Below, piece by piece: positions 17,953-64,000 of a DNA stretch of 64,000 bases. The notes below the pieces were generated by a model. The model was not told the DNA's origin, ran no database searches, and worked only from the letters and a program-made list of their open reading frames with translations. Within the stretch, counting starts at the first letter, position 1. Every line of letters begins with the position of its first letter. The stretch comes from Crambe crambe. Taxonomy: Eukaryota; Porifera; Demospongiae; Poecilosclerida; Crambeidae. The position numbers and the translations under genes were made by a program. Where the stretch lies: assembly GCA_963924555.1 (NCBI GenBank), contig OZ004597.1:2250404-2314403 (forward strand). The letters run 5' to 3'.

Positions 17953-20900
17953 TTACATGTTCTCATGGTCTTCATCATCAATGTCATCTCCTGAGAGTTG
18001 CTTGAAGCGAATCTGGCCTTTCTTCTTCCGTCGGATGTAGTAAATGACACCAACAACAATGCATGCCACTACAACCGCAAGTGCTACCAGAACCAATGGC
18101 ACTGCTACTGCTGCTGCTATGTCTGGATGAGAAAGTAAGAAGAAAGGAAGGAAGGAAGCAGGGAAGGAAAGAGGAAGAGGGAGGGGGAAGGAAGGAAGGA
18201 AGGAAGGAAGAAAGGAAGGGAGGGGGAAGGAAGAAGGGAGGGAGGGAGGGAGAAAGGAAGGAACAGTTAATTGAAATGGTGAAATTTGATGTGTACTCCC
18301 TTAAATGTTACTATAAGTCTCCATGTAACTAACTACATTATGGACTACAGACTTACTTATCTTCTGACTAGAGGGTTGAGAAGGTATGTGCGTGGTGCCA
18401 TTGTTGGTAGAGGGAGGAGTGGTCACTGAACAACTGGAGACATCAAGAGGAATTGCCACCAATGGGATGAAGTTTGCTGTCACATTCAATTCAGGGTAAT
18501 CGAAGTCAACCTGTAGAATGGAGTGGTTAAGTAGGTAATATTGAGAATTTCTCGTCATTTGAATCTTCAGACTTTGAGTTAGATTAAGCACTCCATTATG
18601 CTGACTTAGTTACAGGACCAGACATGCTGAATGGCTCACCTGAATCCCTATGGCGGATGAGTTATAATGTAACAATGTTACATTCAGACCAAGTGAAATG
18701 TTATCCAGATGAAAGTATTCAGAATTAGAAATAGTGTAATCATATGGCATTGATCCATTGGCAGTGAACAGAATCCTGATGGCTGGAGGTGAGCTGCAAG
18801 GAAGAAGCTCAAGATTGAAGGACCCTTCTTCAGATCCAAAGTTGCACATCATTTCTTGGCAGTCACCAGAAACAGAGCAATCAGTTGATTCCTTCAAGTA
18901 GAGACCATAGAACGCATTGATGTACTGAGAGATGTTATTCATTTGAGGACAAGTGCCAAAAACAGCTGCTGGTGAAAATGAAATAAACACATGATTGGGG
19001 GGAGGCAGATGCACTGACCTGCACTGCAAGCTGTTCTGTTCAAAGGCAACTCCTTATAGCTCAGAACAGTGACATTTGTACCATCATCAATGGTAGTAAT
19101 GATCTACAGAAATGAAAAGTGCACTAAGTACTTTTACTGTTGAGTCTTATTGTGGTCACCTCCAGTCCAATGGTAAACTTGCTACTGTGCTTTTCAATGG
19201 TGAAATACACCGGGAACTGGACACCATTGAAGCTAGTTGTCAACATCTGGGAGGTAGTCAAAATCTTGCAAAATGATGTCCCATTGGCATAGATCAGGGA
19301 GAATTCCACAGCTGGAGGGTCATTGCAGGGGAGCACGGTAATCACGACTTCCTCCCCTCCCAGGGCGAAGCAGCTGACTGTGTTACAGTCAGGGGTGAGT
19401 GAGCTGGTGCAAGAAAGGGACGATCCATCCAAAACATGTGTTATTTCCTCTGCTATAGTGGGCATGATGTCACATGTGCTGACGAGGGAGTTGATGGTGG
19501 GTCTTGGTCCAGTACACGTGCCATTGTCAAGAGGAATTCTGATGTATGGAGTTATGAACCTAACAACACCTTCAACTGTAACTTCCTCCTGAGAAGAGAA
19601 AGAGAAGAGAATTGAAACAGACCAAGAAATAAATAATAGAAGATGTGCAATCTCAATGGATACACTGAATGGAAGGGGAATGGGAAGAGGATTTAACATA
19701 ATGGAATAATTTGACTAGAGAAGCTCACCGAAAATCCCAGCAGGTTGGGACCCAAATGGTCCAATGTCATATTAGTGGCTACAGAACCATTAATGTAAAT
19801 GGAATCATAAAGAGTGTAGTTGGTGGTGAAGTTATTCCAGCTTTCTGTTGAAAAACTGTTGAACCCAGCAGGATTGGAGCAAGGCAGAAAGGTGAGATTG
19901 GAATATCCGCCCAGAGGAAAGGTGCAATTGATGGTGTTGCAGAGAGAGGATCGAAGAGCTTGGCACTCTGGTGTGTACTCAGGTAGATGGGCCAGGTTTG
20001 CAGTCTCAACTCTCCAGTATCGCACAAGCTCATCCATAGTATGACAGGTGAGAGAGTCGTTAGTATTTGCTGTACCAATCACAACAATGAAGTATGTTAT
20101 TATTATGCTGCTTTTAACTTACTTGCACAAGCTGCTCTGTTGAGAGGAATTTCTTGATAAGGGACGAAATTCACGTCTGCTTGGTTACCCATATTATCAA
20201 TTATTGTGGCATTAATCTGTTCCAATAAAGAATAGAGCTGATTAAACTTACTGGCTGGCTGGTTTATCTCACCTGGATGCCCAAGGTCAAATTCTGGTCG
20301 TGATGAAAAATTGAGATGTTGAGAAATGCTGGATTACTCCCAATAGATGCATTGACTGAGAAAGTTGTGGTAGTAAATGTCTGATTGAATCTGACAGAAC
20401 CAGCTGCACTCCTGCTCAGCAGCTGGATGCCTGGAGGGTCATGACAAGGAAGAACAGTGAAGGAGAGGACGTCGTTGTTGGAGAGGACGGTGCACTCTGC
20501 TGTATCACAGTTGGGTGGTGGGGAACTGGTGCAGTTTAGGGTATCAGCAATTGCATTAGTGGCTGATTTGGCAAGAAGAGGCATAACGTCACAAGAAGTC
20601 ACTGGGAAGGGGAAAACCCCAGGGGTCACATGACATCTCGACGTTTCAAGAGGAATTGCCACCAATGGGATGAAGTTCGTGGTCACATTCAATTCAGGGT
20701 AATCAAAGTCAACCTGTAGAATGGAGCGGTTGAGTAGGTAATATTCTTCTATTGGTTTAAAATTTCATCAGATACATGAATATACACAGATATAATAAAG
20801 CAGCCACACCATTGTAGTTCTGAATGGCTCACCTGGACCCCAATAGTGGATGAATCGTAATGCAACAGTGTTACATTCAGATCAAGTGGACTGTTATTCA

Positions 20901-23900
20901 TGTGCAAGTATTCGGAATTAGAAATGGTGAAATTTAATACCACTAATCCACCGGCAGTGAATACCATCCTGATGGCTGGAGGTGAACTGCAAGGAAGAAG
21001 TTCAAGATTGAAGGACCCTTCTTCAGATGAAAAGTCACATGTCATTTCTTGGCAGTCATCAGAAGCAGAGCAATTGGTCGGACTGGCTGTGACGTTACCA
21101 TACAAGACGTTGATATACTGAGAGATGTTATTCATTTGAGCACAAGTGCCAAAAACAGCTGCAGTACATATATAGAAGACACTTGATTGGTGGAATGAGA
21201 TTTAAAAAAAAGCATGCATCATAATAGGGCTTGAGCAACTCTACGATCTTAGATCCAACACAAGTTCCTATTGGGAGCATATAATTATGTGCATGTCCAA
21301 TAGGTAAGCTTGACTGATTTCTACAGCTGTGATAAATTACAGCTTCCCAAGTTAGAAGTTCGAGCCTATCAGCTCTAGAGCTAAAGGAAAGGAAATATCA
21401 ATATTTGTTTGCTCGCTCGCTGTCTGTACATTGCCCTAGTTACTTTAAAAATTGCAATGGTATCAATAGGACACTCGAGAGACATGGCCCAAATAGAGCA
21501 GATGCACTAACCTGCACTGCAAGCTGTTCTGTCCAAAGGCAACTCCTTGTAGCTCAGAAAAGTGACATTTGTATCCTCAATGGTAGCAATGATCTACAGA
21601 AATGAAAAACGCACAAATAAATAATTGACTGTTTAGTCTTGTGGTCACCTCCAGTCCAATGGTAAGCTTGCTACTGTGCTGTTCAACAGTGAAATACACT
21701 GGGAATTGGACACCATTGAAGCTAGTTGTCAACATCTGGGAGGTAGTCAAATTCTTTTGAAATGATGTTCCATTGGCATAGATCAGGGAGAATCCCACAG
21801 CTGGAGGGTCATTGCAGGGGAACACGGTAATCATGACTTCCTCCCCTCCCACACTATTGAGGGTGAAGCAGCTGATGGTGTTACAGTCAGGGGTGAGTGA
21901 GCTGGTGCAAGAGAAGGACGACCCATTCAAAAAGCTTGTCATTTCCCCTGCTACCGTGGGCATGATGTCACATGAGCTGACGAGGGAATTGATGGTGGGT
22001 CTTGGTCTAGTACACATGCCATCGTCAAGAGGAATATGGACATATGGGGAATTGAACACAGTATCACCCATTGGTGTAGTAGTCATTAACTATAGAGAAA
22101 GAACAACTTTGAGTACATGGATTGGATTAAAGCACTTTGAAAAGAGCCTACTGTATAAAATTTTTCACATAACAACCACACAAATTTCCTCTGAAGCTTC
22201 ATTTCTCCTAACCTTTTGTGTTCAACTTAAACTCACCGAAAATCCCACCATGTTGGGATCCAAGTGGTCCAATGTTATATTAACAGTCACTGTGTCATTA
22301 TAAACATAGATGAGACCAGAATCATACAGAGTGAAGTTAAGGGCAGGCAAGCTGTTCCTATGGTCAATATAATAACTGTGGACTCCACTTGGGTTTGTGC
22401 AGGGTAAGAAAGCTAAACTGTTATATCCGTTATTCTGTGGTAGGGTGCAATTCATGATGTTGCAGAGAGAAGAACGAAGGGGTTGGCATATTGAGGTGTA
22501 TTCGGGAAGATGGGATAAGTTTGCATATGAGACTGTCCAGTATCGTGCAAGTTCATCCATGGTGCGACAGGTGAGGGAGTCGTTAGTATTTGCTGTACAG
22601 ATAAAAAATTAATTGATGTTATTAATAGGAGCATGACAAGCTTTCTGTTAAAGACACTTACTGGAGCAAGCATTTCTGTTGAGAGGAATTTCTTGATATG
22701 GGACAAAGTTCACAGGAACATGGTCATCTCCCACAACTATTGTGGCATTAATCTGCTCAAAGAAAAGAGTCAGTACATTTACACCCTAACATAATGGCAA
22801 ATTGTTTTCACCTGGATGCCCAAAGTCAAATTCTGGTCGTGATGAAAAATTGAGATGTTGAGAATTGCTGGATTACTCCCAATAGGTGCATTGACTGAGG
22901 AAGTTGTGGTAGTAAACGTCTGATTAAATCTGACAGAACCAGCTGCACTCGTGCTCAGCAGCTGGATCCCTGGAGGGTCATGACAAGGAAGAACAGTGAA
23001 GGAGAGGACGTCGTTGTTGGAGAGGACGGTGCACTGTGCTGTATCACAGTTGGGTGGTGGGGAACTGGTGCAGTTCAGTTGGTCAGCGATTGCATTAGTG
23101 GCTGATTTGGCAAGAAGAGGCATAACATCGCAAGAGGTCACTGGGAAGGGGAACCAATTGGTGTCACTATGGTTACTCGGTGGCGTCCCATTGCAAACCC
23201 CTGGATCCACTGGTACTACCACAAAGGGTACTTCACTCCCAATGTAGTCAGTATTGTCATACAAGTCCAGCTGCAATGAGTAATATTCAAAACTAAGTAT
23301 GGTATAGTATACTATACTATATGGTATAGTATACTATACTATATGGTATAGTATACTATCAGTATTTGTATAGTATACTATATCAGTGTTTCTATGGTAC
23401 AGCATACTAATATGTACAATTGAGTATTCTATATCACCTATTCCTCTATGGGCTCATGACTTACAGAAAAGTGAACGACAGTCTCATTTTGCTGCTCCAG
23501 TACGATAGCACCACTCACATTGGAGTTGAAATGGATATAGGTGGAATTGAATATTGTGAAGTTGTAAGTTGTTTGTGTTTCATTCCCACTGACGACGTTG
23601 AAACCAATCGAATCCCCACATGGCAAGAAACTCATGTCAAACATGCCTCTTTGTTCAGGGTTCCCACAGGAGATGGTGTTGCAAAGTGAGTTGCGGGTTG
23701 CTTGGCAATAGGATGGGGTGTGAGTGATGTTGGAAATGTAGACATTGAGATACTGTGCTATGTTGTCCATCACAGTGCAAGTGAGGCTCTCATCTGGTGT
23801 CACTGCAGAGAGAGAAGCAATTATCAAGCAGGGATATCCCCACTAAACTAATTCCTAATTAAAGATTTTTTGGAAATTAAAATCAATGAATGGAAATTTA

Positions 23901-25746
23901 TGCTTTGACTCCCTCTTCTCCCTGTGGTGCACTTTCAACTTACAGGGACAAGGTGTGGTGTCCAATGGAACTGCATGGTAGGGGATAAAGTTGTGCTGCA
24001 TTGAACTGGTTGTGTTGACCAGCATTATCTACATAAATATAATGCTGGTAAGTCACTATGTGGTGGTTATAAAGGGTCCACACACAAGCATCTCTAGTTT
24101 CAACACATGACTTCATGAATTTAATTTAATTAGAGGTCTTACCCCTAATGATATCTAATAACAGAGGTCTTACCCCTACTCCTAAGACTTTGCGTTCACT
24201 GTGTTGTTTAATAGTCACATTGAAGAGCATGGTGGAACCACCGATAGCACCATCCTGAACGCCAGAAGAGCTGAAATTTAGAGTCTGAGTCGCTTTTGCA
24301 TTGCTAATCAGTATTTGAACAGAAGGTGGGTTGTCACAAGGAAGCACGTTCACCACAATCATTTCATTACTCGGAGTCAGCTGGCATGATACCCCTATAC
24401 AACCAGGGACTGGGGAGATACTGCAGTCGAATGTGTTCCCAAGTATGCTTGTTGCACTTGCTTCCATGGCGATGTGACTCATCAGGTCACAGGAGTTCAC
24501 CAAAGGCACTCCGATTGTGTGGTTAGTGTTGTTTTGTAGACTACAGCCGGTCACATTAAGGGGGATGCTAACAAAGGGGATCATCGGCTGAGTCACCTGG
24601 AGGCTATGATTCAAGATGTCTATGTACACTGTATCAACCTGGAGGTGGGGAGAGAAGAGGGAGGAGAAAAGAGAGGGGAGGGGAGGGAGAGGGGAGGGGA
24701 GGGGAGGGGAGGGAGGGGGGAAGAGAGATAAGATCATGCATCAGCACTTTGTCTATTATCACTGCCTCAATCTTCCCTTATCCCATCCATCCCCATTTTC
24801 CCCACCTTCCACCATTTCTAATCCTTGCAGCTCTGTCCCACTCTAGTGTCATAAAATCTCACTTCAAATCCCAAAGCACTTGTGCTGGCATCAAATCCAA
24901 ATCTCCCAACGCTGAGCACAAAGGAATCGCTCAGAGGCACCATTCTTGACTTGCTGAAGGTGAACTCGTTAGTTCCATCGGTGAGTTTCAGCGACAGCTC
25001 ACAGGGAAGGATGGAAAAAGATTGATAGCCGATATCCGACACGGTGCAGTTGACAGTATTGCAGTCACTGGAGACAGCACAGTTCCAAGTCTCTTGATTT
25101 TGAGTGATGTTCATGAAGAAGATGTTCATGTATTGAGCAATGTTCCCCATAGTAGCACAGGTAGGAGATGGGGTTATGGCTAAAAAAATTATCATTAATA
25201 GTGATGGCCACTGCCAATTTACCAGCTAAGTTTTGTAAATTAAAATTCTTATCCTTTACCTCCTGGACAATTTGCTCTATCCATAGGGATCTCACGATAT
25301 TGAATTAATGTTGTGTTTGTACCATCACCTTGTAGATCTGATGCAGCCTGCATTATATTGTAGAATTCTTTTACTGGTATTCATGTAAATCCATTATGTA
25401 CAGCAAGTATTTAATAATCATGGTATTCAGTATGTACAGTTACGCAACCTGGCCACAGAATGTCACCCTAGCCTACACATAGCCTAGGGTCAATTAAACT
25501 CACTATTCATAGGCAACAGATGTCAGACTGGGGGCTTATCACTATTCATAACCATTAGCAGATAGTAGCTAGGAGAAAAAAATCAACCAGTGAGACTACT
25601 AAAGGGAAGATAACTAAAACTTTGGGAAGAAGGGGAGGGCATACATAATGAAAACAGGCAGTATTAATTTCATCCAATTTTCCAGAATGTTTTTACTGTT
25701 TACTGAAAGTTATACTAATATTTACTCTGAGTGTCTGCTGGCTTTT

Positions 25747-25798
<52 letters not shown>

Positions 25799-26369
25799 AG
25801 TAATGAACTTACTTCAAAGCCCATTGTCAGGAAATCTGTGTGCTGTTCAATATGAAATTCCACTTCAAGACTTCCATTGCTGAAAGTGACGTTGAGGCTA
25901 TCAGATGCACTGATGGACTGATTAAACAGGACAACATTGTGAAGATCCATCACAGTCAGTTGCATTGACGGAGGGGAAGTGCAGGGTTGGAAATCTACAA
26001 CAAAATTGTCCCCGTTAGAGCTCACACGGCAGCCAAACTTGTAACAGTCCGAAGAGCTGATAGAGCAATTCAAGAAGTTATTAGGGATCTTATTGAGGGA
26101 ATCGACCATGAGTGGTATAACGTCACAACCTGTAATGAGGGGGGTGACAGGGGTAGGGGTACTAGTGGGCGGGGTCTTATCGGCTGATCTTCGGTTGGAC
26201 TTGTGGATGTTGATGGTTTGAGGTTGAAACAGAGAGTGCAGAATGGGGCGTGGTTTTTGTTTTTTACGCTTGCACCCGTTGGTCTCCAATGGTAATTTGG
26301 TGTATGGGATTTCTGTGACCACTCCATCCAGGTTGATAAAATCCACCTGAAAGGGGAGAAGTAAATTGT

Positions 26370-26413
<44 letters not shown>

Positions 26414-29081
26414 TTGCAATAAAAAGGCAGCTGCTCTTTACCCTGGACTGTCATAACTGTTGCTGGGTAAATACATATGCTCAGTTTACCCAAGGTGATC
26501 ATGAAAAGAAGGAATGAATGTACACCTACAAGATAAATTAGCCCGGGCTTGCTTCGCTCCGCAGATTAAACAGGATGATGATTGTTTCCTGTGGACCATG
26601 AAAATTTTACCACACCATAACTGAACATAGCGTGAGCAATAACCTGCCAACACCCTCAATATAATATTGTCTTCCAACTAAAGAAGGAAGCCTTATGGCG
26701 ATAGTTATGCAGGGAAGTGCATTGCAACCAGTTCACAGCCAAACCCATATTTCTGTCACCATGCTTTTTTCTTTCTTTCTTGAGTCAAAAATTACACACA
26801 TTCAGGTTTTAAGTGTGGGTTCCGAAAAGAAACAAAAATCACGAAGGAATAAAACATCCTTGAAATATGGAAATACACTATTGATCAGCTTGTACCTGTA
26901 ATACCAAAAAACTTGAGCTTGAATTAGCCGATCAATCACTTTTTGCAGTGATATCAAAACTGATCATTTATCAGTCAGAGTGGGAAGTGTCCCCTTGATT
27001 ACACGACTACCACATGGATTACCTGAAGTCCAATGGTTTGAGGACCGACATGGTCAAGTGTAACATTCATTCTACGAGTTTTATTTAGCTGCATGATCTC
27101 GGATTTCTGGAAAGTTGTGTTGATGACCGCCTCTCCCACCATCACGATGATTCGGACGGCCTGAGGATTCGAACAAGGAAGAAATTGATAGTAACGATAG
27201 ATGGGAGTCATGTATGAATTATTCCATGCGCAATTCATGTGATCACATGACACGGAATTGGGACGTGTGCACATGGGTGTCATTCTCGGGTCCTTGCTCA
27301 CAGCGGACATGGAAGAGATGATGTATTGCTCCATGTAGAGAATCATTTTACAGAGAGGTGGCAAATAGCCTGCATCAATATAATTCAATTAGGACTGCTA
27401 TAGAATAATGGAATTTGTCAATTGATCAAGTTGATGGGTATGCAGTTAGAAAAAGGTGATAACTGTGAGTGGTTTGTCAAGGCTGCCTAGTATAGACAAT
27501 AATTATTTTATAACTTTTACTGAAAGTGAATTTATGTTGGGATAAATACAGTTATAGCACTGACACCACATTTCGATTAAGGCTTCATACACACATATGG
27601 GGTCATAAATTACACTCTTAGTCCCAGGCCAAGAGGCTAGGGCTAGGGTTAGTTCTAGGCTAGCAGCCAAGTTCAAAGTGGAACATAAATTACTGCATGT
27701 CTACCAAAGACATTCCCCATACCAGACAGACAGCCCACTGCATGGGGAATTTTTGGGGGGCTCTGAAGCAGGACCAAACATTGGGCCCACTAGATGATAA
27801 TCAGAACAAATTTAAAGCAGGATGGGTGCCATTAACCAAAATGTGGCCATGGTGTCACAGGAAGTACTACAGTTCTGTGGCTGAATGAAGTCTATACCTT
27901 TATTTATTGGATTTACAAAGTCAGCAGGCTGAACTACAAATGGCGTGTTATTATGAACATACCTCCTGCATTACATTCAGTCTGATTCAAAGGAATGTCT
28001 CGATAAGGTATAATTTGTTTCCATACATTGGCTCCCTCACGAAGAACATCCACCTGCATACACACAGTAAGAGGTCTCATTCTTTTCATAATGTCCAGAA
28101 TGTAGCTAGATAATGTCACTTCAATTGCTTGTGAGCTTTCCAAGTTGGTTGGCAGATTTCATGTCTTAGCAGTGTTTGCAGTAGTGCACAATGTAGAGTT
28201 TACATACTTCTAACTGCAGCTAGGACCTGCCAACCAACTTGCAAAGCACAAGGGAGTTGCCTTTTGGGAAATAAAGAAAAGAGCCAACTTTAAACCATTT
28301 TCTTAGTACGCACTTGTTCCTAATACTTTGACAGAGGCTTGGAAGGTGATAGTCCTAGTGGATCGGCTTATAAGTATGCAATATTGCTGTGCTTTTAAGA
28401 GATTTAAAATACATTTTCAGAGGATCTGATTGGCCACAAGTCATGTGACCAGCAAATAGTGCACAATGCACTCAGCTGGTGCATTACTAACCTCGTGCTC
28501 GGCTTGTGCATTATTAACCTCGTGCACTATGGCATCATCCTTGTGTGCACACATTAAAAACTTAAGGTTAGCTAGGTATGTTATAACTATTACTTAATGC
28601 ATTCTTACCCCAAAGCCCAGAGTAAGTCCAGCTCTCTGCACCGCTGTCACATTCAACTGCACCTTCTCTCCCCCAATATATGTAGCTGCTATCCTGGATG
28701 AATCAAATATGTCCTGGAAGATGATAACTCCGCTGATAGCACGGTTCTTGATCCACATGGCTGGATGCTGCCAGCAGGGAAGCAGCTGGAACTCCAACTG
28801 GTCGTTATTTGAGAGGACCTCACAGTTGATGGTTTCGCAGTTGGGCCAGTATGTACTCGCACAAGCTATGAGCCCACTCCCTGCTTTGTTGGCATCTGCA
28901 ACCACTAAAGGCATCACATCACATGTGGAGACTAGAGGTGGCCATGGATCTTCCTGAGCACCTATTCCTAAAAAGTTGCATGGCAAAGAATGACATACAG
29001 ATATCCAATGCAGCTTAGTTGCTCACTTTCAAAGCTTGCAATATAGAGAACGATCAGCAACATTCTAGAATTGCTGGCCAT
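17953..29081 (-). CDS. Giant type I membrane protein with 14 tandem six-cysteine modules (receptor family, 'gene R')
   Basis: Twenty-four exons join with no frame break to 2158 residues. Exon 1 (29081-29027) is a signal peptide (MASNSRMLLIVLYIAS). Then a three-exon cassette repeats seven times: an alpha-module exon (phase 0-0 after the first, 429-534 bp), a linker exon (82-94 bp, phase 0-1) and a beta-module exon (317-356 bp, phase 1-0). Each module carries C-x2-M, then C/C/C, F-x-LPC-x2-PP, an NVT-x-H strand and a closing IPL(D/N)R-x2-C. Examples are 23270-22812 (alpha), 22752-22662 (linker), 22592-22237 (beta). A short Thr/Ser stalk (18510-18357) precedes the TM helix and tail (18122-17953): RRKKKGQIRFKQLSG, then DDIDDEDHENM. 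NxS/T sites are abundant. I do not recognise the module; the role is probably surface recognition or adhesion (inference). Confidence 0.85.
18128..18263. repeat. Purine-rich (GAAG/GGAG)n tract
   Basis: About 135 bp of GAAGG/GGGA repeats on the + strand. On the minus strand, the coding strand here, it is a long (CTTCC)n pyrimidine tract that ends just before the splice acceptor of the TM exon of gene R at 18122. Confidence 0.9.
23291..23378. repeat. AT-rich palindromic tandem repeat
   Basis: About three copies of a ~28-bp unit built from GTATAGTATACTATAC blocks, each self-complementary, so the tract can form hairpins. It lies in an intron of gene R, between the exons ending at 23465 and starting at 23270. 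Confidence 0.85.
24640..24726. repeat. (GGGGA)n purine tract beside a splice acceptor
   Basis: A G/A-only stretch of ~85 bp on the + strand. On the coding (minus) strand it is an unusually long polypyrimidine tract leading directly into the acceptor of the gene R exon that begins at 24638. Confidence 0.9.
25749..25796. repeat. (TC)n microsatellite
   Basis: About 24 TC dinucleotides in an intron of gene R, some 16 bp past the donor of the exon 26346-25813. The RERERE reading frame on the minus strand is repeat-derived. Confidence 0.95.
26370..26410. repeat. (AC)n microsatellite
   Basis: About 20 AC dinucleotides in the intron of gene R, roughly 25 bp upstream (on the minus strand) of the acceptor at 26346. 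Confidence 0.95.
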
Positions 29082-29218
29082 CGTTGTCAGAAGTTTAGAA
29101 GTTAGAAGCCTACAGCTAGCTAGCTAGATACATAAGCCACACCTCCTCTTATTGGTGCGCAAGCGCATAGTAGGTGTGGTTAAAAACCCTTGATTATCTT
29201 TTTCTATTTCTGTTGACT
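29082..29218. promoter_or_regulatory. 137-bp bidirectional promoter between the two large receptor genes
   Basis: The start codons of gene R (29081, minus) and gene A (29219, plus) are head-to-head with only 137 bp between them. Near the centre are an inverted CCAAT box (ATTGG, 29151-29155) and TGCGCAAGCGCA (29156-29167), one base from the NRF1 consensus. These are framed by inverted CCACACCT (29137-29144) and AGGTGTGG (29172-29179), so the whole block is roughly symmetric around 29158. CCAAT and NRF1 sites are typical of animal bidirectional promoters. Confidence 0.7.
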
Positions 29219-32200
29219 ATGGCCTCTCGACTGCTATGGTTGATAGTATCATTATGCTTATCAATTTCTTCAAGAGGCAAGTTGATTCAGGATCATGAGC
29301 TAACTAGCTACCTCTAGCTAGCTGTGACTGCTGGCTCTAGCTAGCTAGCTAGCTAGCTTAGCAGCTGGGTATATAATTCATATTCATAAACTAATAACGC
29401 TAATAAGGTTGTTTCAGACTAGTTGAATATTGTTTTAGAGAGAAAGAGTTGCAATACTGAAACCTGGAGAGAGTTAAAATTAAAAAACAAAAACAAAAAA
29501 AAACACAAAGAAACAACAGGAAGTCTGTTTCCTGTTTCTGAATAATAATACTGTGCTCTTTATTCATGCAGGTTCCTGCAGTAGAATTGAACCATCAGTG
29601 GAGTTCTGGCCATCACAAGCTATATGGCCAACACCAGAAATCCAGCCCACTTCAGGAACAAATCAACAAACCACGTGCTCGGCTCTGCAGGGGATAGTGA
29701 GCACCAACCCTCTCTGTACTACCTCCATTTCATGTACTGCCATCAACTGCATCTTAAGTGATGAAAATACAGCCATGTTTGGAGTGATGCCGTGCAGTAA
29801 CCCCCCTTCCATCAATGTGGTCACTAGACAAAACGGGAGAGTCGTTTTCAACAATACGATTTCCCAATCTCGAGTTATACCGATTACCCTTTCTGGTATT
29901 ACTATTGTGAGAATCAATGTAACAGTGACGCATTCTCCTGACTTGGATTCTATTACATTAAAGGTCTCTATAGCATGCTTTTGGAGTCCTAACCTTGCTA
30001 AAACCCTTGAGCCCTTGAGCAATTTCAGAAATAGCTGACACAGCAGGGTTAATTATACTCAATTTGCCAAAAGATTTGGGGGATTTTCAAGGAACCAAAC
30101 CATACTGCTAATAGATTGGAAAACTCTCATATAAGCTGGTTCCAAAGTGCCTATAGCTAGAGGTCCCATCTCAGGACATATTGTTATGGGCAAACATTGC
30201 AGTTTCCCCAAAGGGGGGAGGGCAGTGCCCTTACTCAAAAAATCAATTAGTATTATCGGAAGGGGTCTTCCCAGGGGGGGGGGGGGCATGGGCAATGTGT
30301 CCTGAATTCCCCATGTAGCATTAAAGGAGGGGGTCTCCCCAAGGGGTCAGGGGCAACTTCCTTAATTACCTCCCTGGCTAGTGAAGCCTGATAAGTGTAA
30401 TTGACTTCCCATGTAGTACATAAACGGTAAATGAGCATAATAAATGTCTAAGAATCATGTGTACAAGGGTTTTGTATACAAGTTGTGTATACAAATACAC
30501 TAATACCTACACTTCTTCAATCAACCTGAAATCCATTCAGCCATATAATTCTCTCCAATGGAGAAAATTTAACACTTGTCCTGAATAATTATAGAGTTCA
30601 CTAATTAAGAGAGGTTTATATTGAAGAATACATTAGAGTTATGTGGTGCTTGTGCCACTGTTGTAAGATTCATAATGACTGTAGTCCCTATGTATATTAA
30701 TCAGCCACCACAGGCAATAGTACTATATGTTGTTGTTGTTGTTGTTTATTGGTTGTTGTTATCACAGGTAGATGCCATTTTTACACTCTCTACTACTACT
30801 GCGCTCCCATTGATTCCAGAGACACGAATTCCAATTGACAGATCTCAGTGCAACTCCACCGAGACCCACGTCTCTCAACTCCTTTCTCTTTATCCCAGCC
30901 CCACCCCCACTGGACCCTCCCCCCATGTTCAGACCTGTCAGACACTGAGGAGAATAGCCTCTACTCCGGGGAGTGTGTGTCATACAACTGACTCTTGCAC
31001 TGCCCTGGACTGCGTTTACATCAGCTATCACTCCAAGTTAACTATCCTACCTTGCAATAACCCCCCTGCTCTGAGGGTGGCCATCACAAATCCATCTGGG
31101 ACGATTGTGTTTAATCAAACTCTGACACAATCTCGTAGACAGCCGGTCTCATTTGGAAATATTATTTTCTATGTGGTCTTTACTATCAGTCATACTCCTA
31201 ATTCGATCAACTTAAAGGTAAGTTCTAGAAGCTAGCTAGGTAATACACAGACCCAGGTGGAAGATTTTTCAAAACATGCTTTGATGGAATTGACCCAAAC
31301 TCCAGTCATGTATCTCTAAACCAACTTTCAGCCCCAAGGCTTGCTGGTAGTCATGGAGAGCTAAAGTATAAAGAAGTGGGCCCCAAAATGAATCCATCTA
31401 ATATTTGATTTCTACCTGGTGCTATCACATCCAATGAGTGGATCTATCTGGGACTGTATGAGTGATGTGTCTCCATCTATTTTCTGACCCATTTTTTCTC
31501 TTTGGCCAGACAATTCCAACTTTAGTCAGACATTCTGTCAGAACAAATTCAAGAAGTCACACATCATATAGATATACTCAAAGAAGATAAATGACCAGCA
31601 AATTCCTATAATGTCTGATCAAGGTTGGATTTGGTCGGATAAAATATCCTGAAACTCTTATTTTTCACACTGTGTCTCTAATAAGTTACTATTATGTGGG
31701 ATCAAATGACACACACTTTCTTGTAACAACATTTGTTCCAATCACGAGTAGTTCCATATCCTGTGACAGATTAATATGAGATGACTTTGACTGTGTCATG
31801 TCTTGTCATAGTTGTTCTGATTTGATGTGTTAGTATTTCAGGTGCATTGTTAATGAAACATCAAGAACATGCTAGCTTTTAGTTCCAAGCCTAGCTATGC
31901 ATGCATATTATTGAGAAAGGTTGCTACCATAAATTTTTGTTGTTAGAATCCATAGTCACCTCCCCCTATCAGGGTTCTCCCCAGTTAAACTGATCAAAGC
32001 GGTGCTTGAATACCACATTAAAGGATTTTGACATTCTTGTGGCTATTAAAATACATTGTTTTAACCACATGAAAGAAAAATGGGCCATGTTGTACCTCTC
32101 TAACACCCTTTGGGGAGAACCCTGCCTATGAAAATTAATTACATTTGTACAAACTAGTGATATTTGAAAAGTGGCTTCAATCAGGAATGAATTATGATAA

Positions 32201-35200
32201 ATAATTTTAACTTGATATGCATAATGATAATATTTCTCTAGGTCACCCTTGATCCACCTATAGGCAGTGATATAGTTCTCGTCCCCAAAACATCAATACC
32301 GATAGATCGCTCCAACTGTTCCAATGTCTTCCCCATGATTTCCGTCACCCCGACTCCCACTCCAGCGCTGGCCACCAGCAGAACCTGCCAAGCACTCCAG
32401 CAGATAAGTTCCAGTACACAAGGCTGCCAAATCACATCTTCCTGTAACACTCTCGTGTGTGACCTTGTGGCGGCCACTGTGGACTTCACTGTGCTGCCCT
32501 GCGTGACTCCTCCTGCTGTCCAAGTGGTAGTTTTGGATGGCTCAGATGAGGTCCTCTTTAATGACACTGTCACGCGTTCTCGACTGGAGAATATCACCCT
32601 TGGCTCTACACCTGTGTTTCTGTTGAATGTCACAGTGAGACATCCACCCTCCATGGATGCTATTATCTTCAAGGTGTGTTCTATTTAATGGCAGCATTTT
32701 ATGGATATAGGTTATGAATTTCCCTTCCTGAGTCGGTAAAAGGTGTTATTAATATTATATATTAGCCAGCAACTTTTCTTGTCTGTTGCATGTATGAACA
32801 TCCTGGAAGTAATTGGATAGGTATTTCCATGTTGAGATTTACTAAGAATATAGGAAACAGTTGCGATAGCTATGAGGTTTCCATCAAAGGTCAGGTTTTT
32901 GCAACTACAACTTTTTTCTTTTTTTTTTGCTGTAAATCCAGTGATGATTCTGTTGCCTAAACACTTTCTATGGCATGGACTTTATACTCAGTATTAGAGC
33001 TATTACAGGGAAATCAGACAGGATGTATGCATAGAACCAGCATGCACCCTATATCAGGATATCAGCTACACAGCCTACAACTTTGTACCAGTGACTTGTC
33101 ATCTATTCAGTACGACAGTAGCTTCAACTTTGCACTGTGACATCATTAGTGTCAATATTTTGAAGGTGTCAATGTCTAGCCATCACCAATACATTGCATA
33201 ATCTGGCTTCATGCAGTAACTTTGCCGTCACTGTTTAACTCCTTAATAGCTAATATTTTTATCTATTAATTTTCATTTCAAAAAGAGTTTCTCCTCACAC
33301 GAATGATATGCACACGAGTATAAGTTTAAGTGACCAAATACAAATTTTGACACAAAAAAGAACACAAAATTGGTAATTTGAGTAATGATCTGGTATGCAA
33401 ACTTGTGACAAATACTATTTAGCTCTGCTCTGTGGACATTAAGTATGTGATAAGTTCAGCTGAACATATATGGTAGCTAACTATATATTTGGTTTTCAGT
33501 TTGAGTTCTACTCTCACTGAGTACCAAGGACTGTGTCTTTTCAGTGACCTCCGAATTAGTTTCCTCATCGGCTGTCAGATCAGATGTGCTCTTCCAAAAC
33601 TTTTTCTTGCTTAGGTACCCTTCCTCCAAACCCTCAGGGTACAGTGCAGCCATGGTGATATAATCTGGGTCATCAAACAGCTTCAGGGCTTCCGCAGACA
33701 TTTTTTCTCTGTCTAATGTGTCTGTTGCATTTAAGCTGCTGTGGAGACTTGTTGGTGAAGACAGAGCTAAGCCCGAGTCTCTTTGAGGGGACTCAAGAAT
33801 GTACAGCTGTCCTCTGTCCCTCTCTGGTAGAGAAGGAGGGAGATCTACTGCTTGCTCTTCTGGTGAAGAGTGACAAGAATCAATCCTAGCAGCAGCAATG
33901 ACGATGGAAGTAGGTTTCGGAATCGGATTATCACTGGAATTCGATCTTGGAGGTGGAATTGGACTGTTCCTGTTATCAGTGGAATTTGGTCTTGGAGGTG
34001 GAATTGGACTGTTCCTGGTCTCTTCTTGGATCGTAATTGGAACTGCACTGGGATGAGATGAATTATTGGATGGATCATTTGAAGGTGTTTCGTGGACATC
34101 ATACACTGAGGCACGCACTGTTTGAGTAGCCATTATGCCTGCTTCTTCCTCCTCAATGAAGACTGACTCATTTTCTGCTTCTGCACTTTGCTCCTCTTTC
34201 TCTTGTTCTTTAATGGTATAGATTGTATTCTCCTGTTTCTGAGGAGAATAATCATATTTCTCCTCAGCATAGATCCCACCTGCTGGTTCTTCAGTGGAAT
34301 AGATTCTGTTTCCGTTTTTCTTCCGAATTGAAGTATTAAAAATTGACTGGTTATCAACGGAACGATTCCCCAAAGTGGAGTTACGACCACTGTGCAAAAA
34401 CAACAAAAAAAAACAATAATAGCTGTGACTATGCATGCATGGAAACTATAACCATAACATTTATGCAAAATTACCATTGCACATAGCTACCACAGCATTG
34501 CAGCTGGCTAGATATGATTATGCATACTTACATTGTCGAGAAAGATGTTTGATACTGAAGGGTTCCACCATATTGACTGTAGCGATCGCCCACATATCCT
34601 CCATCTACAATATTGCACAGAAAGAACAGTTCATGTACTTATTTCCTAATGAATTTCAGTGCTATAGATGTAAACATGTCAGTTTCAAGATTTTATACTT
34701 ACGTTCTCTATAATAGTCTGCTTCTTCAATGTCCACTTTTTTACTAGAGCGGCAACATCTATAGCAGCAAATGGAGAAAAAGATGAACGATACACCAATG
34801 ACAAGAACACCAATGGATCCACCCAGTGCTATTTGGCCTGCAAGTGACAGTGGAGGAGAGGGAATGGTTGTAGTAGTTGCTGGAGCTGTTGATGTAGGTG
34901 ATTCGGTTACTGAAGAAGAAAGAAGTATAGTTGGTCGGTGTTGCATACAGAATAGCCATGCAGTGTACATGCATAAACCATGCGTACATGGAGTGTACAT
35001 GCAGTGTACATGCGCATACAAGGTGGCTAAGAGGAGAATTGTGTTTGCTATCTAGCAGCTGTTAGATGCAGCTGCCATGGTATAGAATTTTTAAAAAAGA
35101 AGCTTTATTGGTACATGAATGAGCACTGCATGCTTGCAGAATGCACTTACCTCTAGTGTTGACTATCGTTGCCATTGTGTTGGAGTCAGATGGTGTTTCC

Positions 35201-45205: not shown

Positions 45206-45261
<56 letters not shown>

Positions 45262-47414: not shown

Positions 47415-47808
47415 GTATTGCAACACATCGTCTTGGATGGATCTAGATGTACACCCTTCACACCTTTTCCAGGCAAGTTCACATCCCAGTTGAACGAGAA
47501 AAGATTGTATTCTCTCCATGTAACTGCTCCAGTCCCGGACTACCTGCCTCATGGGGTGACATGTTCTAATAACGGACCTGCTACAGCTGGCATGACAGTC
47601 CAAAACTGTCACTCGACCAGGTCTGACAACTGCAACAACTGTCAATCAACCAGGTCTGACATCTACTAACCGACCACCTGGTCCAACAACCATCAACTAC
47701 AGTAGTAGTAGTCACTTCTTAATGTGAAGCCATCGCTACAAGAAGAAGAGGGAATTCGGTTTCCAGAGAATGGCCTTCAACAAGAGCAATGATGATGATA
47801 ACATGTGA
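47415..47808 (+). pseudogene. Receptor remnant lacking the TM helix (copy E2)
   Basis: The end of a linker exon (TTGCAACACATCGTCTTGG, GC donor at ~47474) and a stalk (47525-47690) are present. An internal deletion then joins the intron (ATGTGAAGCC) to the middle of the last exon (ATCGCTACAAGAAGAAG). The cytoplasmic tail is present (KKKREFGFQRMAF, acidic end) but the signal, modules and TM helix are gone. Confidence 0.75.
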
Positions 47809-48411: not shown

Positions 48412-49833
48412 ATGAGTTGTACCCCATTTATCTTCATTGGTGAGCATTCTGTAAGAGTCCCTAGTTTCACTTGGTCAGTCTCTCCGATTGCACACACACA
48501 GTGACAATCCAAGCAGTGGTACTGCAGCTGGCTTCTTCCCAGAGCTGTGGCAATCTTCCTGCTAATTGCAGAGCATTGGATGACAGCTGTTTGAGAATAC
48601 GATGCTCCAGTGCCGACCACACAGCATGGATTCAAGTATCCAACTGTACAGATCCTGTGCAGGTGGACCTGAGTGTTTCTGACTCAATTGGTCATCAGTA
48701 TAATAGGACCTATAGTGTCAGTGGTGAAGGTCATTGTGGAGAATTGGCTATGAATGGCACGTTGCATCTGACTGCTACTTACGATCGGAATGCTTCACAT
48801 CTCACATTTGCTGTATGTTAGGGAGAGAGAGAGAGAGAGATTCATCAATAATTTTTATGTTGAAAAAATGCCAGGTATCCTTCGTTCTTAAAGGTGACCA
48901 AACTATCGTTCCTCTTGTCCCATCCATCAAACTGCCCCTGAACCCAGCCGAGTGCATGTGCAGTTCCATTCACAGTCTCTCTGACGTCAGTGGAGGGTAC
49001 ATTGTGAATTACATGTACATGAATAGAGGCAGGCCCTGTTCCCCTGACACTAACTGTAGTGGCATGTACTGCAATATAGAATATGCTACCTACAGCGGTG
49101 GTGGATCTGTATCCCCCACTCACATCATGATTGACCCTTGTGCTCAGAGTGTAAGGATGTATACGATCGATTCTACTTTTTTTGATCAAACTGTCAATGA
49201 CTCTGATGTGATGGAAGTAACTTTTTACTATGGATTTTTAAATGTCACGATTAATCATTACAACTACTCCATGGAAGTTTCAGTGAGTAGGGTACATAGG
49301 TAACCTTGTATAGCCCTAGGCTAAGTACCTATAATAGTACAAAGCCATGAGGGGTTCAATTCTTCCCCTGTAGCTACTCCAGGAAAACTTATTTCTGGGT
49401 AGCTAGCTTGTTGGTATAACTTGCTAGATAAGATATTCTGAATTTTTATTACGTTGCTCTTTCATCTAAACTTTAATCCTTTGAAGTCTATTTCATATAT
49501 AGATGTCTTTCATTTTTCGATGGCGCAGCGACTTTTTGCCATTGCAACGCATCATCTTGGACAGAACTGGGTGTACACCCTTCACATCTTTTCCAGGCAA
49601 GTTGATGTGACAATGATGTCCAGTTGATTGAAAAAGGCACCTCACTTTTTGGGACCGAGAAGATTTTTAGAATTCCTATAAGTTGCCTCTTCAGTGAGAT
49701 GTCATAAATGCCTGTATTCCCAGCTATGATGTGGATACTCCTCTCTGGGAAATAGGTCGTATATCCATGATAACCAAATACATATTTGTCCTGTAGCTGC
49801 TCCTGTACTGGACGACCTGCCATGTTCCAATGA

Positions 49834-50120
49834 AATGTCACAGAGCGAACAGCAAGAAGCTGAGTATTTCACTGAGGAGCGGAGTTTTTGTTGCTAAAGA
49901 TAATTTGAATTTTTAAGCAGGACTCCCAAGATGCTAAGCATCTGCCTTTTTATAGCTATTTTACAGAATGAATATGATTGGTTGATACAATGCTAAAATG
50001 AGCCAATAGGATTACTATATTAAAATGACCAATGAGATTAAGTGTCTGTTATTACTTAATAATGCAAAATTAACCAATCAAGTAAGTCCACAGTCATGCT
50101 TCTAGTGTCAGTCTATCACA
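49834..50120. mobile_element. 287-bp insertion in the stalk exon of copy F
   Basis: Comparison with copy E (TGTTCCAATGACACAATA) shows 287 extra bases between two copies of CAATGA (49828-49833 and 50121-50126). The interior has repeated GACCAAT/CCAATCA-like motifs and is AT-rich. I found no convincing terminal inverted repeats, so the class is unknown. Confidence 0.6.
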
Positions 50121-50672
50121 CAATGACACAATAATCTTCAACCAACCTGGTCTGACTCTACCAGGGTATTCTGTGTGGGATAGCAGTAACCACGTGGTCA
50201 CAAAAGAATGTAATTACTAACCATAAATTTCCAGTGTGATACATAGAGTTTCAATGGGTCTATATGAAATGCATTGTTTCTCTGGAATGTAGTATAGCTA
50301 TTCTAGAACTTCATTTAACAAGCCATGTAAATGTTGCCATATCAACGTAGATTTGTAATAAGAAGTGGCTGACCAAAAATCAGCTATTGTTGGTGAGAAA
50401 TAGTTTTTTACATACTTTGAGAGTAATGAAGCTTCATATCTTGGGTATTCTTGTGGGGCTTTGCACGTTGAAAGGATGTCCTAGCTACTTCCTTAGGTGG
50501 CCACTTCGATTTCGAGGTGGACAGGTATCTACATGTAGTTGAGTTTTTCTTGTATATTTTTATTATACTGTATTACTTTATTAGCTACTTTAGCTACTTC
50601 TATAGGAGTCACACAACAGTCCCACCATCTTGCCCTTAAAGTAGCTCTGCCTGTGGTGTGCTTCATCATCAT

Positions 50673-51592
50673 CAGTCTACGCTAAGAGCAAGGTACAAAG
50701 GTTACAACTCGCGGGAAAAAGGCTATTATAAAGCAACGTTTTGCTCATTCAATATGTCTATATTTTATATTTCAATCATATTTTATCGTCTTACTACAAA
50801 GTTTATCTATAACCTACGCCGCTTAAATGACGTTTTACTTGAATATTCCATCGAAAAACGAGGCAGTTCAGCTTCTAGAGGTGAATCTACTCGACTTGGG
50901 TTGACTGTGCAAGTTGCAGCAAACGCTTTCCTGATCTTAACTCTTGCTGAGAGGTAGTCCATGCTTCATATTTCAACATACCTTTGAAACTTTTCAGTAT
51001 CCTACTTCGTGCTTCGAGATACACGGTCACAAATAGTGACAAAAACACTTTTTAACCACGAACTGAACTAACTTCAAATCTTTTATAACTCCAGATTAGA
51101 CCCACTAGTATCATTGCATACTGTAGTTGGCCCTCTATGACTAATGGCTTTAGGCTTATAACGTCCTTGCTACACGGCCTTCTTCTTCTCCGTCCATTTT
51201 CAGTAGACTGTGCAACGTGCAGCAAAAGGTCAGTGACACTTCATTTTTGGATGACATCATCCCTGACCTCAACACTATATTATACTATCATAGTACCTAC
51301 CCGTCCAGAATTAGCACTGGTTTTCTGGCTCATCTCCTCCCAAAATATTGCCTAGAAACGTCATTGGTAGGTGTGGCAGTACAGTGTGATGACACTTTGC
51401 GAATTTCGCGGTGCGCCATAATCCTTTGTTGTTCATGTCTCAGATAATTTTAGCGACAGAATTTAAAGTTGTAATAGTTGTTCACGTGAATGCTATGAAA
51501 CGTCATACCATCACGCGTGGTTTGTTTTGTGGTATGGTTGCATGCTGATAATGTAGTGAGTACCCAATTATAGTGGGTCTTAGTGTAGACTG
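50673..51592. mobile_element. 920-bp DNA transposon in the TM exon of copy F
   Basis: The ends are inverted: CAGTCTACGCTAAGA at the left and the complement of CAGTCTACACTAAGA at the right. It interrupts a sequence that is continuous in copy E (TGCTTCATCATC...GTGGTGCAGTCAGC), replacing ~35 bp of it. A motif, GACTGTGCAA-GTGCAGCAAA, occurs twice inside. No clean target duplication and no transposase-like ORF. Confidence 0.65.
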
Positions 51593-53268: not shown

Positions 53269-53893
53269 CAATCCTCCCATTGCAACGCATCATCTTGGAC
53301 AGATCTAGATGTGCACCCTTTACACCTTTTCCAGGCAAGTTGACATCCCAGTTGAATGAGTCTTGGGTTTAACATAATTTTCTCCATGTAGCTGCTCCAG
53401 TCCCAGACAACCTGCCTGATGGGGTGACATGTTCTAATAACGGACCTGCTACAGCTGGTCCAACAACTGTCACTCGACCAGGTCTGACAACTGCAACAAC
53501 TGTCACTCGACCAGGTCTGACATCAACTAACCGACCACCTGGTCCAACAACCATCCATCAACCTGGTCCAACAACCATCAATCAAACAGGTCTATAATTT
53601 TCTTAACTACAGTGGAACCTGTTCTAGTAGTCACTTCTTAATGTGAAGCCTTGTTTTCAAGATCACTCTTACATTGTATGTTCATAATCTCTTCTATAGG
53701 AGTCACACAACAGTCCCACCTTGCCCTGAAAGTGGCTCTGCCAGTAGTGTGTATCATCCTCTTTGCAGTTTTGTTTGCTGTTGTGTTCATGGTGGTATGG
53801 ATAGCATACCATCGCTACAAGAAGAAGAGGGAATTCCATTTCCAGAGAATGGCCTTCAATGAGAGCGATGATGATGATGATGATAACATGTGA
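53269..53893 (+). pseudogene. 3' half of a receptor copy joined to the dehydrogenase fragment (copy G)
   Basis: It starts inside the linker exon (~53269-53334, [17 protein letters not shown], GC donor TTCCAG|GCAAGT). The stalk (53392-53589) and the TM/tail exon (53700-53893) follow, all in frame. The tail HRYKKKREFHFQRMAFNES plus DDDDDDNM is the best-preserved version outside gene C. No signal peptide or module exon is present. Confidence 0.78.

Positions 53894-58661: not shown

Positions 58662-58663
<2 letters not shown>

Positions 58664-59444: not shown

Positions 59445-59489
<45 letters not shown>
59445..59489. repeat. Poly(C) run of 45 bases
   Basis: An uninterrupted run of C next to GGGCGCCGGG. 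This length is unusual and prone to sequencing or assembly error. Confidence 0.9.
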
Positions 59490-59522
59490 TGGGCGCCGGG
59501 CTGCAGCAGAACGAGTTTAGTA

Positions 59523-60507: not shown

Positions 60508-60584
60508 TATACGCGTTGTGCGCCAGACGAGACCCCCCCTTCCGCGTGCTGGTGATGCAATACATCCAGTGCTGCGGAAGTGGC

Positions 60585-60927: not shown

Positions 60928-60935
60928 ACAATCCA

Positions 60936-61354: not shown

Positions 61355-61796
61355 ACAATCCAAGCAGTGGTACTGCAGCTGGCTTCTTCCCAGAGCTGTG
61401 GTAATCTTCCTGCTATTATAAATTGCAGAGCATTGGATGACAGCTGTTGGAGAATACGATGCTCCAGTGCCGACCACACAGCGTGGATTCAAATATCCAA
61501 CTGTACAGATCCTGTGCAGGTGGACCTGAGTGTTTCTGACTCAATTGGTCATCAGTAGAATAGGACCTACAGTGTCAGCGGTGAAGGTCATTGTGGAGAA
61601 TTGGCTATGAATGGCACAATGACATTGCATCTGACTGCTAGATCTACTTACGATCGGAATGCTTCACATCTCACATTTGTTGGTTGTTTTTTTTTGTTGT
61701 TTTTTTGCTAAAAAAATTTTTTTTTTGAAAGAAAGGTGTGGTCACCCTTGGTATGACACGTGAAAAGAAAATATTACAATAATATTATGTCAGAGA

Positions 61797-63315
61797 CATT
61801 ACAAGCGGAGTGAAGGAAGAATGTTCTACTTCTAGAATTCTTTGTTCATAGGAACGCTTCTTGCACTTCTCATGCTTGCGATAACAAGTCGAGGGGGTGG
61901 TGTTACGATTTGAGGTGGCATGTGGGTTGAAGACTCTCACATCGAAGAAGGTGCGCTCATATCGGCTGCCCCAGGGGTGTATACAATCAGTGGACTGGAC
62001 TACTGGACTGGACTACTGGACTGCCCTTTCACTTTACACATGCGAAATTGTAGAAGTGTAGCTGCATACACTAGTAGTTTGTCTACCACTAGAAGTGCAT
62101 ATCATCCTGCATACCTCTTAATGACACTTGTTGTCTTGCACAAAAAATGGTAAGGCCATACAATCTAGCTACTAGACGAAGGTAGCTATATGTTTGCTGC
62201 TTGTAAGAACTAGCATAAAATAAATAAATGTGCACTAGTTGGAAAATTTTAGTCAAGCTCTGTATACCCTCCCCTCCATTCCACTTCCCTCCCTCCAGTC
62301 CAGTGGTCCAGTCAGACACCGTCACTGGTGTATGGTACTTCCTAGGATAGTTTTGTACAAAGTGGAATGGAGGGGAGGGTAGAGTTTGACTAAACTTGGA
62401 TAGTGGCAAACATACCTTCATCTAGTAGCTATAGATTGCATGGCCTTACCATTTTTTGTGCAAGACAACAAGTGTCATTCAGAGGTATGCAGGATGATAT
62501 GCACTTCTAGTGGTAAACTACCAGTAATTACTGCAATTTCTAATATTACATCTTCCCCAGTAATAGTCTGCACATGCTCAGATGTATAAACTACTGCAAT
62601 TAGGCAGGTGAACTGATGAGGGAAGATGTAATATTAGTAATTGCAGTAATTACTAGTGCATATCATCCTGAATGACACGTACTTGTTGTCTTTGCACAAA
62701 AAATGGTAAGGCCATACGATCTATAGCTACTAGATGAAGGTATGTTTGCCGCTTGTAAAAGCTATCCAAATGTAGTCAAACTCTACCCTCCACTCCATTC
62801 CACCTCCCTCCCTCCCCAAACAAAATTATCCTACGTAGCAGGTTCAAAGCTACCATACACCAGTGACACCACTTGTATCTGGGTGTCTGACGGGACCACT
62901 GGACTGGAGGGAGGGAATTGGAATGGAGGGGAGGGTATAGAGCTTGACTAAAAATTTCCAACTAGTGCACATTTATTTATTTTATGCTAGTCCTTACAAG
63001 CAGCAAACATATAGCTACCTTCGTCTAGTAGATTCTATGGCCTTACCATTTTTTGTGCAAGACAACAAGTGTCTTTCAGAGGTATGCAGGATGATATGTG
63101 GTAGACAAATTATATAGTGTATGCAGCTACACTTCTATAACTATGCAGCTACACTTCTACAATTTCGCATGTGCCAGGTGAAAGGGCAGTCCAGTAGTCC
63201 AGTCCAGTAGTCCAGTCCAGTAGTCCAGTCCACCGATTGTATACACCCCTGCCCCAGAGACCGTTGGCAGCGATGTCCAGGCGGGCTCCATCCTGGGTGT
63301 TTGCAGATACCCCAG
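61797..63315 (-). pseudogene. Fragment of a retroelement-type ORF, split by a foldback element
   Basis: On the minus strand the two flanks of the foldback element (63315-63258 and 61974-~61797) read continuously once the insertion and one target copy are set aside. The motifs are DGARLDIAANGL, YERTFFDVRVFNP and VEHSSFTPLVMS. This resembles the C-terminal part of reverse-transcriptase-associated proteins common in invertebrate genomes (recalled, not searched). No RT core is present here. Confidence 0.6.
61975..63248. mobile_element. 1274-bp nested foldback element with 9-bp target duplication
   Basis: It begins GGGTGTATACAATC and ends with its exact complement; CTGCCCCAG flanks it at 61966-61974 and 63249-63257. 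The left and right halves are imperfect complements of each other around ~62600. Each half is itself a hairpin: one ~300-bp block (ATCATCCTGCATACCTC ... GGTAAGGCCATAC) recurs four times in alternating orientation. Probably a Mutator-like MITE; no ORF. Confidence 0.8.
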
Positions 63316-63333
63316 ATTTTACTGTATGTTGGG

Positions 63334-63334
<1 letters not shown>

Positions 63335-63373
<39 letters not shown>
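63335..63373. repeat. (TG)n-(AG)n compound microsatellite
   Basis: TG repeats running into AG repeats, just upstream of the module-2 exon of copy H. (AG)n at the same relative place occurs in copies E and F. Confidence 0.9.
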
Positions 63374-63801
63374 TTCATCAATAACTTTTGAAAAAATGCC
63401 AGGTATCCTTCGTTCTTAAAGGCGACGAAACTATCGTTCCTCTTGTCCCATCTATCCAACTGCCCCTGAACCCTGCCGAGTGCATGTGCAGTTCCATTCA
63501 TAGTCTCTCTGATGTCAGTGGAGGGCGAGTTATTATCGGTAGAGGGTCAGGGTCCTGTTCCCCTGATACTAACTGTAATGGCATGTACTGCAGTATCCAA
63601 TATGCTACCTACAGCGCTGGTGGACCTGTACTCCCCACTCACATCATGATTGACCCTTGTGCTCAGAGTGTAAGGATGTATACAATCAATTCTACTTTTT
63701 TTGATCAAACTATCAATGACTCTTATGTGATGGAAGTAAATTTTTACTCTGGATTTTTCAATGTCACCATTAATCATTACAACTACTCCATGGAAATTTT
63801 G

Positions 63802-64000
63802 GTAAGCGGGGTACATAGGTCTAAGTACATAGGGCTATAATACCTATGGGGATTCAACTCATGCTCTGTACTCCAGGAAAACGTATTTCTGGGTAGCTTA
63901 TTGGTATAGATATAGTATTGGTATTATCATGTAGTTGCTGTCTCATCTAAACTAATCCTTTGAAGTCTAAAATTTTATTTCATATAATATTATAGATGTC
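63802..64000. other. Intron of copy H to window end
   Basis: Matches the intron after module 2 in copy F (TACTCCAGGAAAAC, TTATTTCTGGGTAGCT-like, CTTTGAAGTCTA) and ends five bases into the next linker exon. Confidence 0.6.

Follow-up and report, generated by a model that had tools for sequence, protein, structure and literature searches.

We describe a family of genes in the demosponge Crambe crambe that encode predicted single-pass membrane proteins assembled from a module with six cysteines, starting from a 64,000-nucleotide stretch of chromosome 17 (positions 2,250,404-2,314,403; hereafter the window) that contains three members, R, A and C. The gene models, the module family, a tail motif common to R, A, C and a gene on another chromosome (D), the presence of the family at several loci, a recent duplication and one hypervariable tract are direct observations. 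Judged from sequence, the case that these genes encode demosponge type I cell-surface receptors with a role in adhesion or recognition is about evenly balanced. Sponges branch near the root of the animals, and which genes let them tell self from non-self has, to our knowledge, yet to be settled. With a module of its own and members on several contigs, the receptor family provides a list of genes for sequencing, expression studies and testing, and the six-cysteine module is a candidate for entry in the family databases as a new protein domain.

Three genes with a shared six-cysteine module

The three gene models were assembled by manual splicing of the sequence and verified with a script. Gene R (17953..29081, minus strand, read from 29081 to 17953) has 24 exons and encodes 2155 amino acids; its 23 introns are anchored by GT-AG, with consistent phases and a frame that is open from end to end. 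Its product comprises a signal-like start, 14 six-cysteine modules located by profile, a short stalk, a transmembrane segment and a 26-residue tail (RRKKKGQIRFKQLSGDDIDDEDHENM), and carries 74 N-glycosylation sequons. Gene A (29219..39212, plus strand; 9 exons, 650 amino acids) encodes three modules, a stalk of NHVGPMPT repeats, a transmembrane segment and a tail (RKKRARTFTFQRMALSDVEGEEEDDD); its first intron has a GC donor (GC-AG) and all others are GT-AG. Gene C (41346..43018, plus strand; 6 exons, 391 amino acids, all introns GT-AG) encodes two modules, a PGPTT(A/V)N stalk, a transmembrane segment and a tail (YKKKREFRFQRMAFDESDDDDDNM). We are highly confident of the anatomy of the genes as modelled. 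An earlier, sequence-only reading of the window had proposed three intact genes with 14, 3 and 2 modules, 19 in all, and the spliced models bear this out. R and A are arranged head to head, their start codons separated by 137 bp (29082..29218, from the first-exon coordinates) that perhaps serve as a shared promoter.

The membrane topology of the three products is predicted from these models. A hydropathy scan with a 19-residue window and a cut-off of 1.6 flagged a single segment near the C-terminus in R (3.25) and in C (3.06), and in A a C-terminal segment (3.34) plus three weaker segments in the ectodomain (1.63 to 2.05). At this cut-off the scan flagged no N-terminus in R, A or C, and the signal peptides are a by-eye reading. 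The type I plan and the variable stalks that had been proposed as a common architecture are both found, the repetitive, Pro/Thr-rich stalks being those of A and C, whereas that of R is merely short. A motif recognized by eye is common to the R, A, C and D tails: a basic run is followed by F/I-x-F-x-x-M/L and then by acidic residues.

In an alignment of 18 of the 19 modules (R11 was omitted as a near copy of R7), all six cysteines are invariant. Other hallmarks named in the sequence-only reading are less general: F-x-LPC-x2-PP is absent from the C modules, where the corresponding residues are SNC and DPC. The last strand of the module (IPLxxxxC) lies after an intron at a fixed place, and in R it is encoded by a separate short exon in 7 of 14 modules, is fused to the next long exon in 6 and is joined to the stalk in 1. 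The same module and the same plan of long and short exons recur in genes with 2, 3, 6 or 14 modules, as well as in an apparent one-module gene. A profile built from R and A only recovered, in a set of 25 sequences, both C modules (C1, E 4e-13; C2, E 4e-10) and all six modules of gene D (E 9e-13 to 6e-4).

Kinship among the modules suggests how R was assembled. In the module tree the even-numbered R modules form a clade with support of 0.98 and the odd-numbered ones a weak clade (0.49), pointing to repeats of a two-module unit; modules R7-R10 pair with R11-R14 (support 0.97 to 1.00; DNA identity between the blocks 78-88%), which argues that the last eight modules arose by duplication of four. 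R therefore looks like a series of two-module repeats extended by a four-module duplication. The A modules form a single clade (0.91); C2 falls with D2 and D5 (0.89). The ratio of nonsynonymous to synonymous substitution rates (dN/dS) is below 1 in the four long-exon pairs of R (R7/R11, 0.45; R8/R12, 0.22; R9/R13, 0.73; R10/R14, 0.53), which supports a real coding function.

A candidate new domain on several contigs

The six-cysteine module is probably a new domain. The sequence-only reading knew of no named domain with this pattern, and searches of Pfam, NCBIfam and the PDB agree in giving no strong profile match. Pfam assigned no immunoglobulin, FN3 or sushi family to 10 window exons (E<=1), 20 modules (E<=10) or 10 further modules (E<=10); scattered matches to module exons fell short of the curated cut-offs wherever cut-offs were given, and in a profile-wide scan no family matched more than one member. 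The best NCBIfam match to the modules had an E-value of 0.035. Against PDB sequences, the first module profile gave eight matches at E<=10 (E 0.5 to 1.2), the best at E 0.52 (13 bits); seven of the eight are antibody domains aligned to profile positions 65-117. This chance-level likeness is a weak hint that the second half of the module may be immunoglobulin-like, or it may be chance; a second, wider module profile found nothing in PDB sequences at E<=1.

Two AlphaFold models of window exons, with mean predicted local distance difference test (pLDDT) scores of 80.4 and 82.2, both consist of a helix followed by nine strands. Neither represents a complete module, since the last strand is encoded in another exon. 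These models predict an alpha+beta fold with one N-terminal helix followed by antiparallel strands. Fold searches with the incomplete models returned no match strong enough to name, and their fold lists exclude nothing. Literature listings on sponge allorecognition, the Wreath domain and sponge-specific or six-cysteine receptors show no description of the module, subscription literature being mostly uncovered. A link to receptor tyrosine kinases was considered and dropped, the excerpted text of a paper on the holozoan tyrosine kinome giving none. A protein search with full-length R scored 7988 candidates, all of similar length, and none reached E<=0.001.

Searches of the C. crambe genome with proteins from R (two), C, D, A, P0007, E and F (the last three described below) placed the module family on at least six contigs, so that the single cluster first proposed is real but is one part of a wider family. 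Gene D on contig C16 (chromosome 13) has six modules, a transmembrane segment and a tail; a signal exon was looked for and not found. Gene E on contig C11 (chromosome 8) has one module, a signal-like exon and a short exon, and scores 48.8 bits with the window profile; a candidate exon for its transmembrane segment and tail, with a YVNG motif, lies on the minus strand at about 1-800 of stretch L018. Gene F on contig C13 (chromosome 10) scores 32.9 bits with the same profile, and as a query it gave 24 matches at E<=1e-3 including itself: 3 on C13, 18 on contig C19 (chromosome 16) and 3 on contig C9, one of which has an internal stop. The 18 matches on C19 span about 90 kb (1.07-1.16 Mb), and 39 kb of this cluster contain 15 module frames. 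A short IPL-C exon lies within 700 bases downstream of 9 of the 15 frames, versus 256 of 2000 random positions; of the six frames that lack it, one has the short exon inside the listed frame and one reaches the end of the stretch. Many of the tandem relatives at C19:1.073-1.165 Mb (stretches L025 to L028) start like AYAQQQ..ETC.

The tally of module exons in the genome reaches at least 57: R, A and C together contribute 19, partial C-type copies 7 (of which two lie beyond the window), D 6, E 1 and the F search 24. This is a lower bound because the search is insensitive. Weak matches on contigs C1, C3, C12 and C18 were rejected, as the module profile did not confirm them in those stretches; further weak matches lie on C21 and at C20:1.98 Mb. 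In a protein search three proteins, all of C. crambe, matched the window module profile, and six did so once gene D had been added. Two of these, P0006 (source tag lgn, taken as Logan) and P0007 (source tag ena), are D3-type exons without a close match in the C. crambe genome. P0007 is 55% identical to D3 and 74% identical to P0006, and its best match in the C. crambe genome, D3, reaches only 54%, so the two derive from another species or from a paralogue absent from the assembly. Scans of genome-contig and viral-contig collections with P0007 found no relative.

Copy turnover and a hypervariable tract

R, A and C are the only intact genes in the window cluster. At least six broken copies had also been proposed, and the window contains six partial C-type copies (44.5-44.9, 45.3-46.9, 47.4-47.8, 48.4-50.7, 53.3-53.9 and 61.4-63.8 kb), all on the plus strand. 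The copy at 44475..44867, found by tblastn with C exons, retains a piece of the stalk and a truncated exon for the transmembrane segment and tail. The copy at 45303..46880 has a module-2 exon into which 4 bases are inserted close to the end, a short exon and a transmembrane/tail exon; its module-1 exon was looked for and not found. The copy at 47418..47802 consists of a short exon, stalk and a piece of the tail, and that at 53271..53893 of only a short exon, stalk and an open transmembrane/tail exon. In the copy at 48412..50682 the signal, module-1 and module-2 exons are open, the stalk is reduced to its first residues and the transmembrane exon is interrupted; by eye, its short exon is open if the acceptor is at 49502. 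The copy at 61367..63798 has an in-frame TAG in its module-1 exon and an open module-2 exon, and extends past the window; the cluster itself continues to about 68.7 kb in window numbering. The interval 46.1-53.3 kb recurs at 64.2-70.9 kb, split into four pieces that are 94.8-96.4% identical to it, and this repeat supports the rapid turnover of copies that the first reading had proposed. A dehydrogenase-like gene, recognized by eye, is carried in the duplication (window 52060-53270 and stretch L012 5340-7400) and is shortened in the window copy.

One short segment of the C-type copies is far more divergent than its surroundings. A 27-base tract at 48998..49024 (plus strand), in module 2 between the helix and Cys2, differs from the 67-kb copy at 14 of 27 bases, compared with 8 of 372 in the remaining exon sequence. 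An alignment of the 48.3-kb and 66.6-kb copies covers 1536 bases and shows 42 substitutions, of which 14 fall inside these 27 bases; none of 20000 permutations was as clustered. Eight of the nine tract codons are changed, and seven of these changes alter the residue. Each of the six pairwise comparisons among four copies shows more change in the tract than elsewhere in the exon (p 2e-13 to 2e-3), and this holds for the pair 63k/45k, which was not used to choose the tract (9 of 23 versus 30 of 362). A 12-residue scan of R10/R14 peaked at the same place (615 of 20000 permutations), that of R7/R11 peaked elsewhere (2 of 20000), and that of C1 41k/48k showed no clustering (14265 of 20000).

A GA repeat lies just 5' of the module-2 exon, at 48823..48840 (plus strand), 158 bases from the tract, and other copies have GA repeats in the same position (45209-45258, 63358-63373 and, in L012 beyond the window, 67093-67112). 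In 73.9 kb there are 6 GA/TC runs that are 12 bases or longer, and 4 of them adjoin module-2 exons; these four placements are not independent, as the copies are paralogues.

Possible functions and neighboring genes

If the family does consist of adhesion or recognition receptors, the ectodomain would be a string of 1 to 14 six-cysteine modules, plus a stalk in R, A and C, whose module loops may make contact with a ligand carried by a microbe or another cell; the short tail would link the receptor to the cell interior through the shared membrane-proximal motif. A bolder proposal, which we consider improbable, is that the genes belong to a large, unnamed domain superfamily of sponge receptors, one loop of which is locally diversified, serving self/non-self or microbe recognition near the base of the animal tree; copies without an anchor might then act as donors or as secreted partners.

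Besides the antibody likeness noted above, several observations weigh against reading the family as adhesion or recognition receptors. The dN/dS ratio exceeds 1 in short exons 15/21 (1.18) and in the C2 pair 48k/67k (1.36), on few changes each; one of the eight changed tract codons is synonymous; and three of the six C2 pairs show no significant clustering at the residue level. General hypervariability between Cys1 and Cys2 in R was not supported, the four R pairs jointly giving a Cochran-Mantel-Haenszel odds ratio of 1.26 (p 0.22; single pairs 0.91, 0.93, 0.026 and 0.062; 0.025 with C2 48k/67k added). The tract occurs in two copies whose stalk and transmembrane exons are interrupted. As both share the interrupted transmembrane exon, selection on a membrane receptor is an insufficient account of it, and its variation may be mutational or driven by conversion rather than by selected binding. 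Finally, other C. crambe alleles from ENA contigs hardly differ: P0003, the other allele of one R module exon and possibly from the same individual, at 1 of 133 residues, and P0004 and P0005, which are D exons, at 0 of 127 and 0 of 178.

The cluster resembles several known systems in part. The sponge aggregation factor proteins, candidate sponge self-recognition molecules, are secreted and have Calx-beta, VWD and Wreath domains, and the scanned C. crambe module exons had no Calx-beta or VWD match in Pfam. Sponge SRCR receptors are similar in cysteine number, the group A domain having six, which form three disulfides, and in gene arrangement, the genes forming tandem arrays, as described in excerpts of PMC10855680; the scanned modules, however, had no PF00530 match, while at least 175 SRCR matches scored in the same genome served as control. 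According to passages of PMC5103432, the sea urchin Sp185/333 genes likewise form a cluster with segmental duplications and GA repeats, but each has two exons and is surrounded by GA repeats, and pseudogenes are nearly absent; compared by description, the GA repeats of the C. crambe cluster are intronic and its partial copies abundant. Hydractinia Alr1 and Alr2, in the excerpted account of PMC11067881, lie in a cluster of single-pass genes, some of whose relatives encode no surface protein, as in C. crambe. Alr ectodomains belong to the immunoglobulin superfamily, whereas the C. crambe modules have no immunoglobulin profile match and their models begin with a helix; the Alr ectodomain is also highly polymorphic, a trait for which the C. 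crambe comparison comprises the one R and two D exon alleles described above, and Alr controls fusion or rejection.

Four alternatives bear on these observations, and the probabilities that we attach to them and to an adhesion or recognition role overlap and do not sum to one. That R, A, C and their relatives are polymorphic self/non-self determinants, comparable to Alr1 and Alr2, is suggested by linked type I genes, many partial copies and the hypervariable tract, and the clustered, single-pass Alr genes are accompanied by 44 gene models taken as pseudogenes (PMC11067881, in part). We nonetheless think an allorecognition locus unlikely: the sole other R module-exon allele is nearly identical, the window cluster retains just three intact genes, an intact anchor is missing from the copies that differ most in the tract, and the excerpted report on an Amphimedon graft transcriptome (PMC5450542), which also cites the aggregation factor family, gives no significant enrichment of adhesion genes. 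Modules that bind microbial surfaces, in innate immune or symbiont receptors whose expansion tracks microbes, would fit tandem clusters on several contigs and the presence in sponges of other expanded ectodomain families, such as the SRCR family counted above, which has 296 genes in Amphimedon according to part of PMC10855680; the tails of R, A and C have, by eye, no tyrosine signalling motif, and we regard this role as rather doubtful.

The proteins could also be ordinary ones of structural adhesion or of gametes, evolving with relaxed constraint in a cluster shaped by neutral birth and death. This would be consistent with the many partial copies, with dN/dS below 1 in most pairs and with a helix-to-Cys2 segment that is not generally hypervariable in R, but relaxed constraint, if uniform, would not be expected to concentrate change in one 27-base tract; we consider this explanation somewhat unlikely. 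The tract itself may instead reflect short-tract gene conversion from a copy absent from the assembly, unrelated to function. Change concentrated in about 27 bases in copies with the same interrupted transmembrane exon speaks for conversion, as do the GA repeats that precede the module-2 exon in four copies, while neither version of the tract has a second match in the C. crambe genome within 3 mismatches that could represent a donor; this account is a serious possibility that still falls short of even.

Other candidate genes lie among or beside the receptor genes. A possible gene on the minus strand (33477-35529), inside the 3.5-kb fourth intron of A, has by eye a signal-like start, a Ser/Thr-rich ectodomain, a transmembrane segment and a long tail that contains several tyrosines and SPIPPPR twice; it had no Pfam match above cut-off and could be a signalling partner. 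Between A and C, a small protein (39860-41173, plus strand) has by eye several hydrophobic stretches and PPSYYE near its start, and the one frame scanned had no Pfam match above cut-off. Beside the 3' end of R, an exon at 16800-17234 matches AFG1_ATPase (PF03969) with an E-value of 2e-23.

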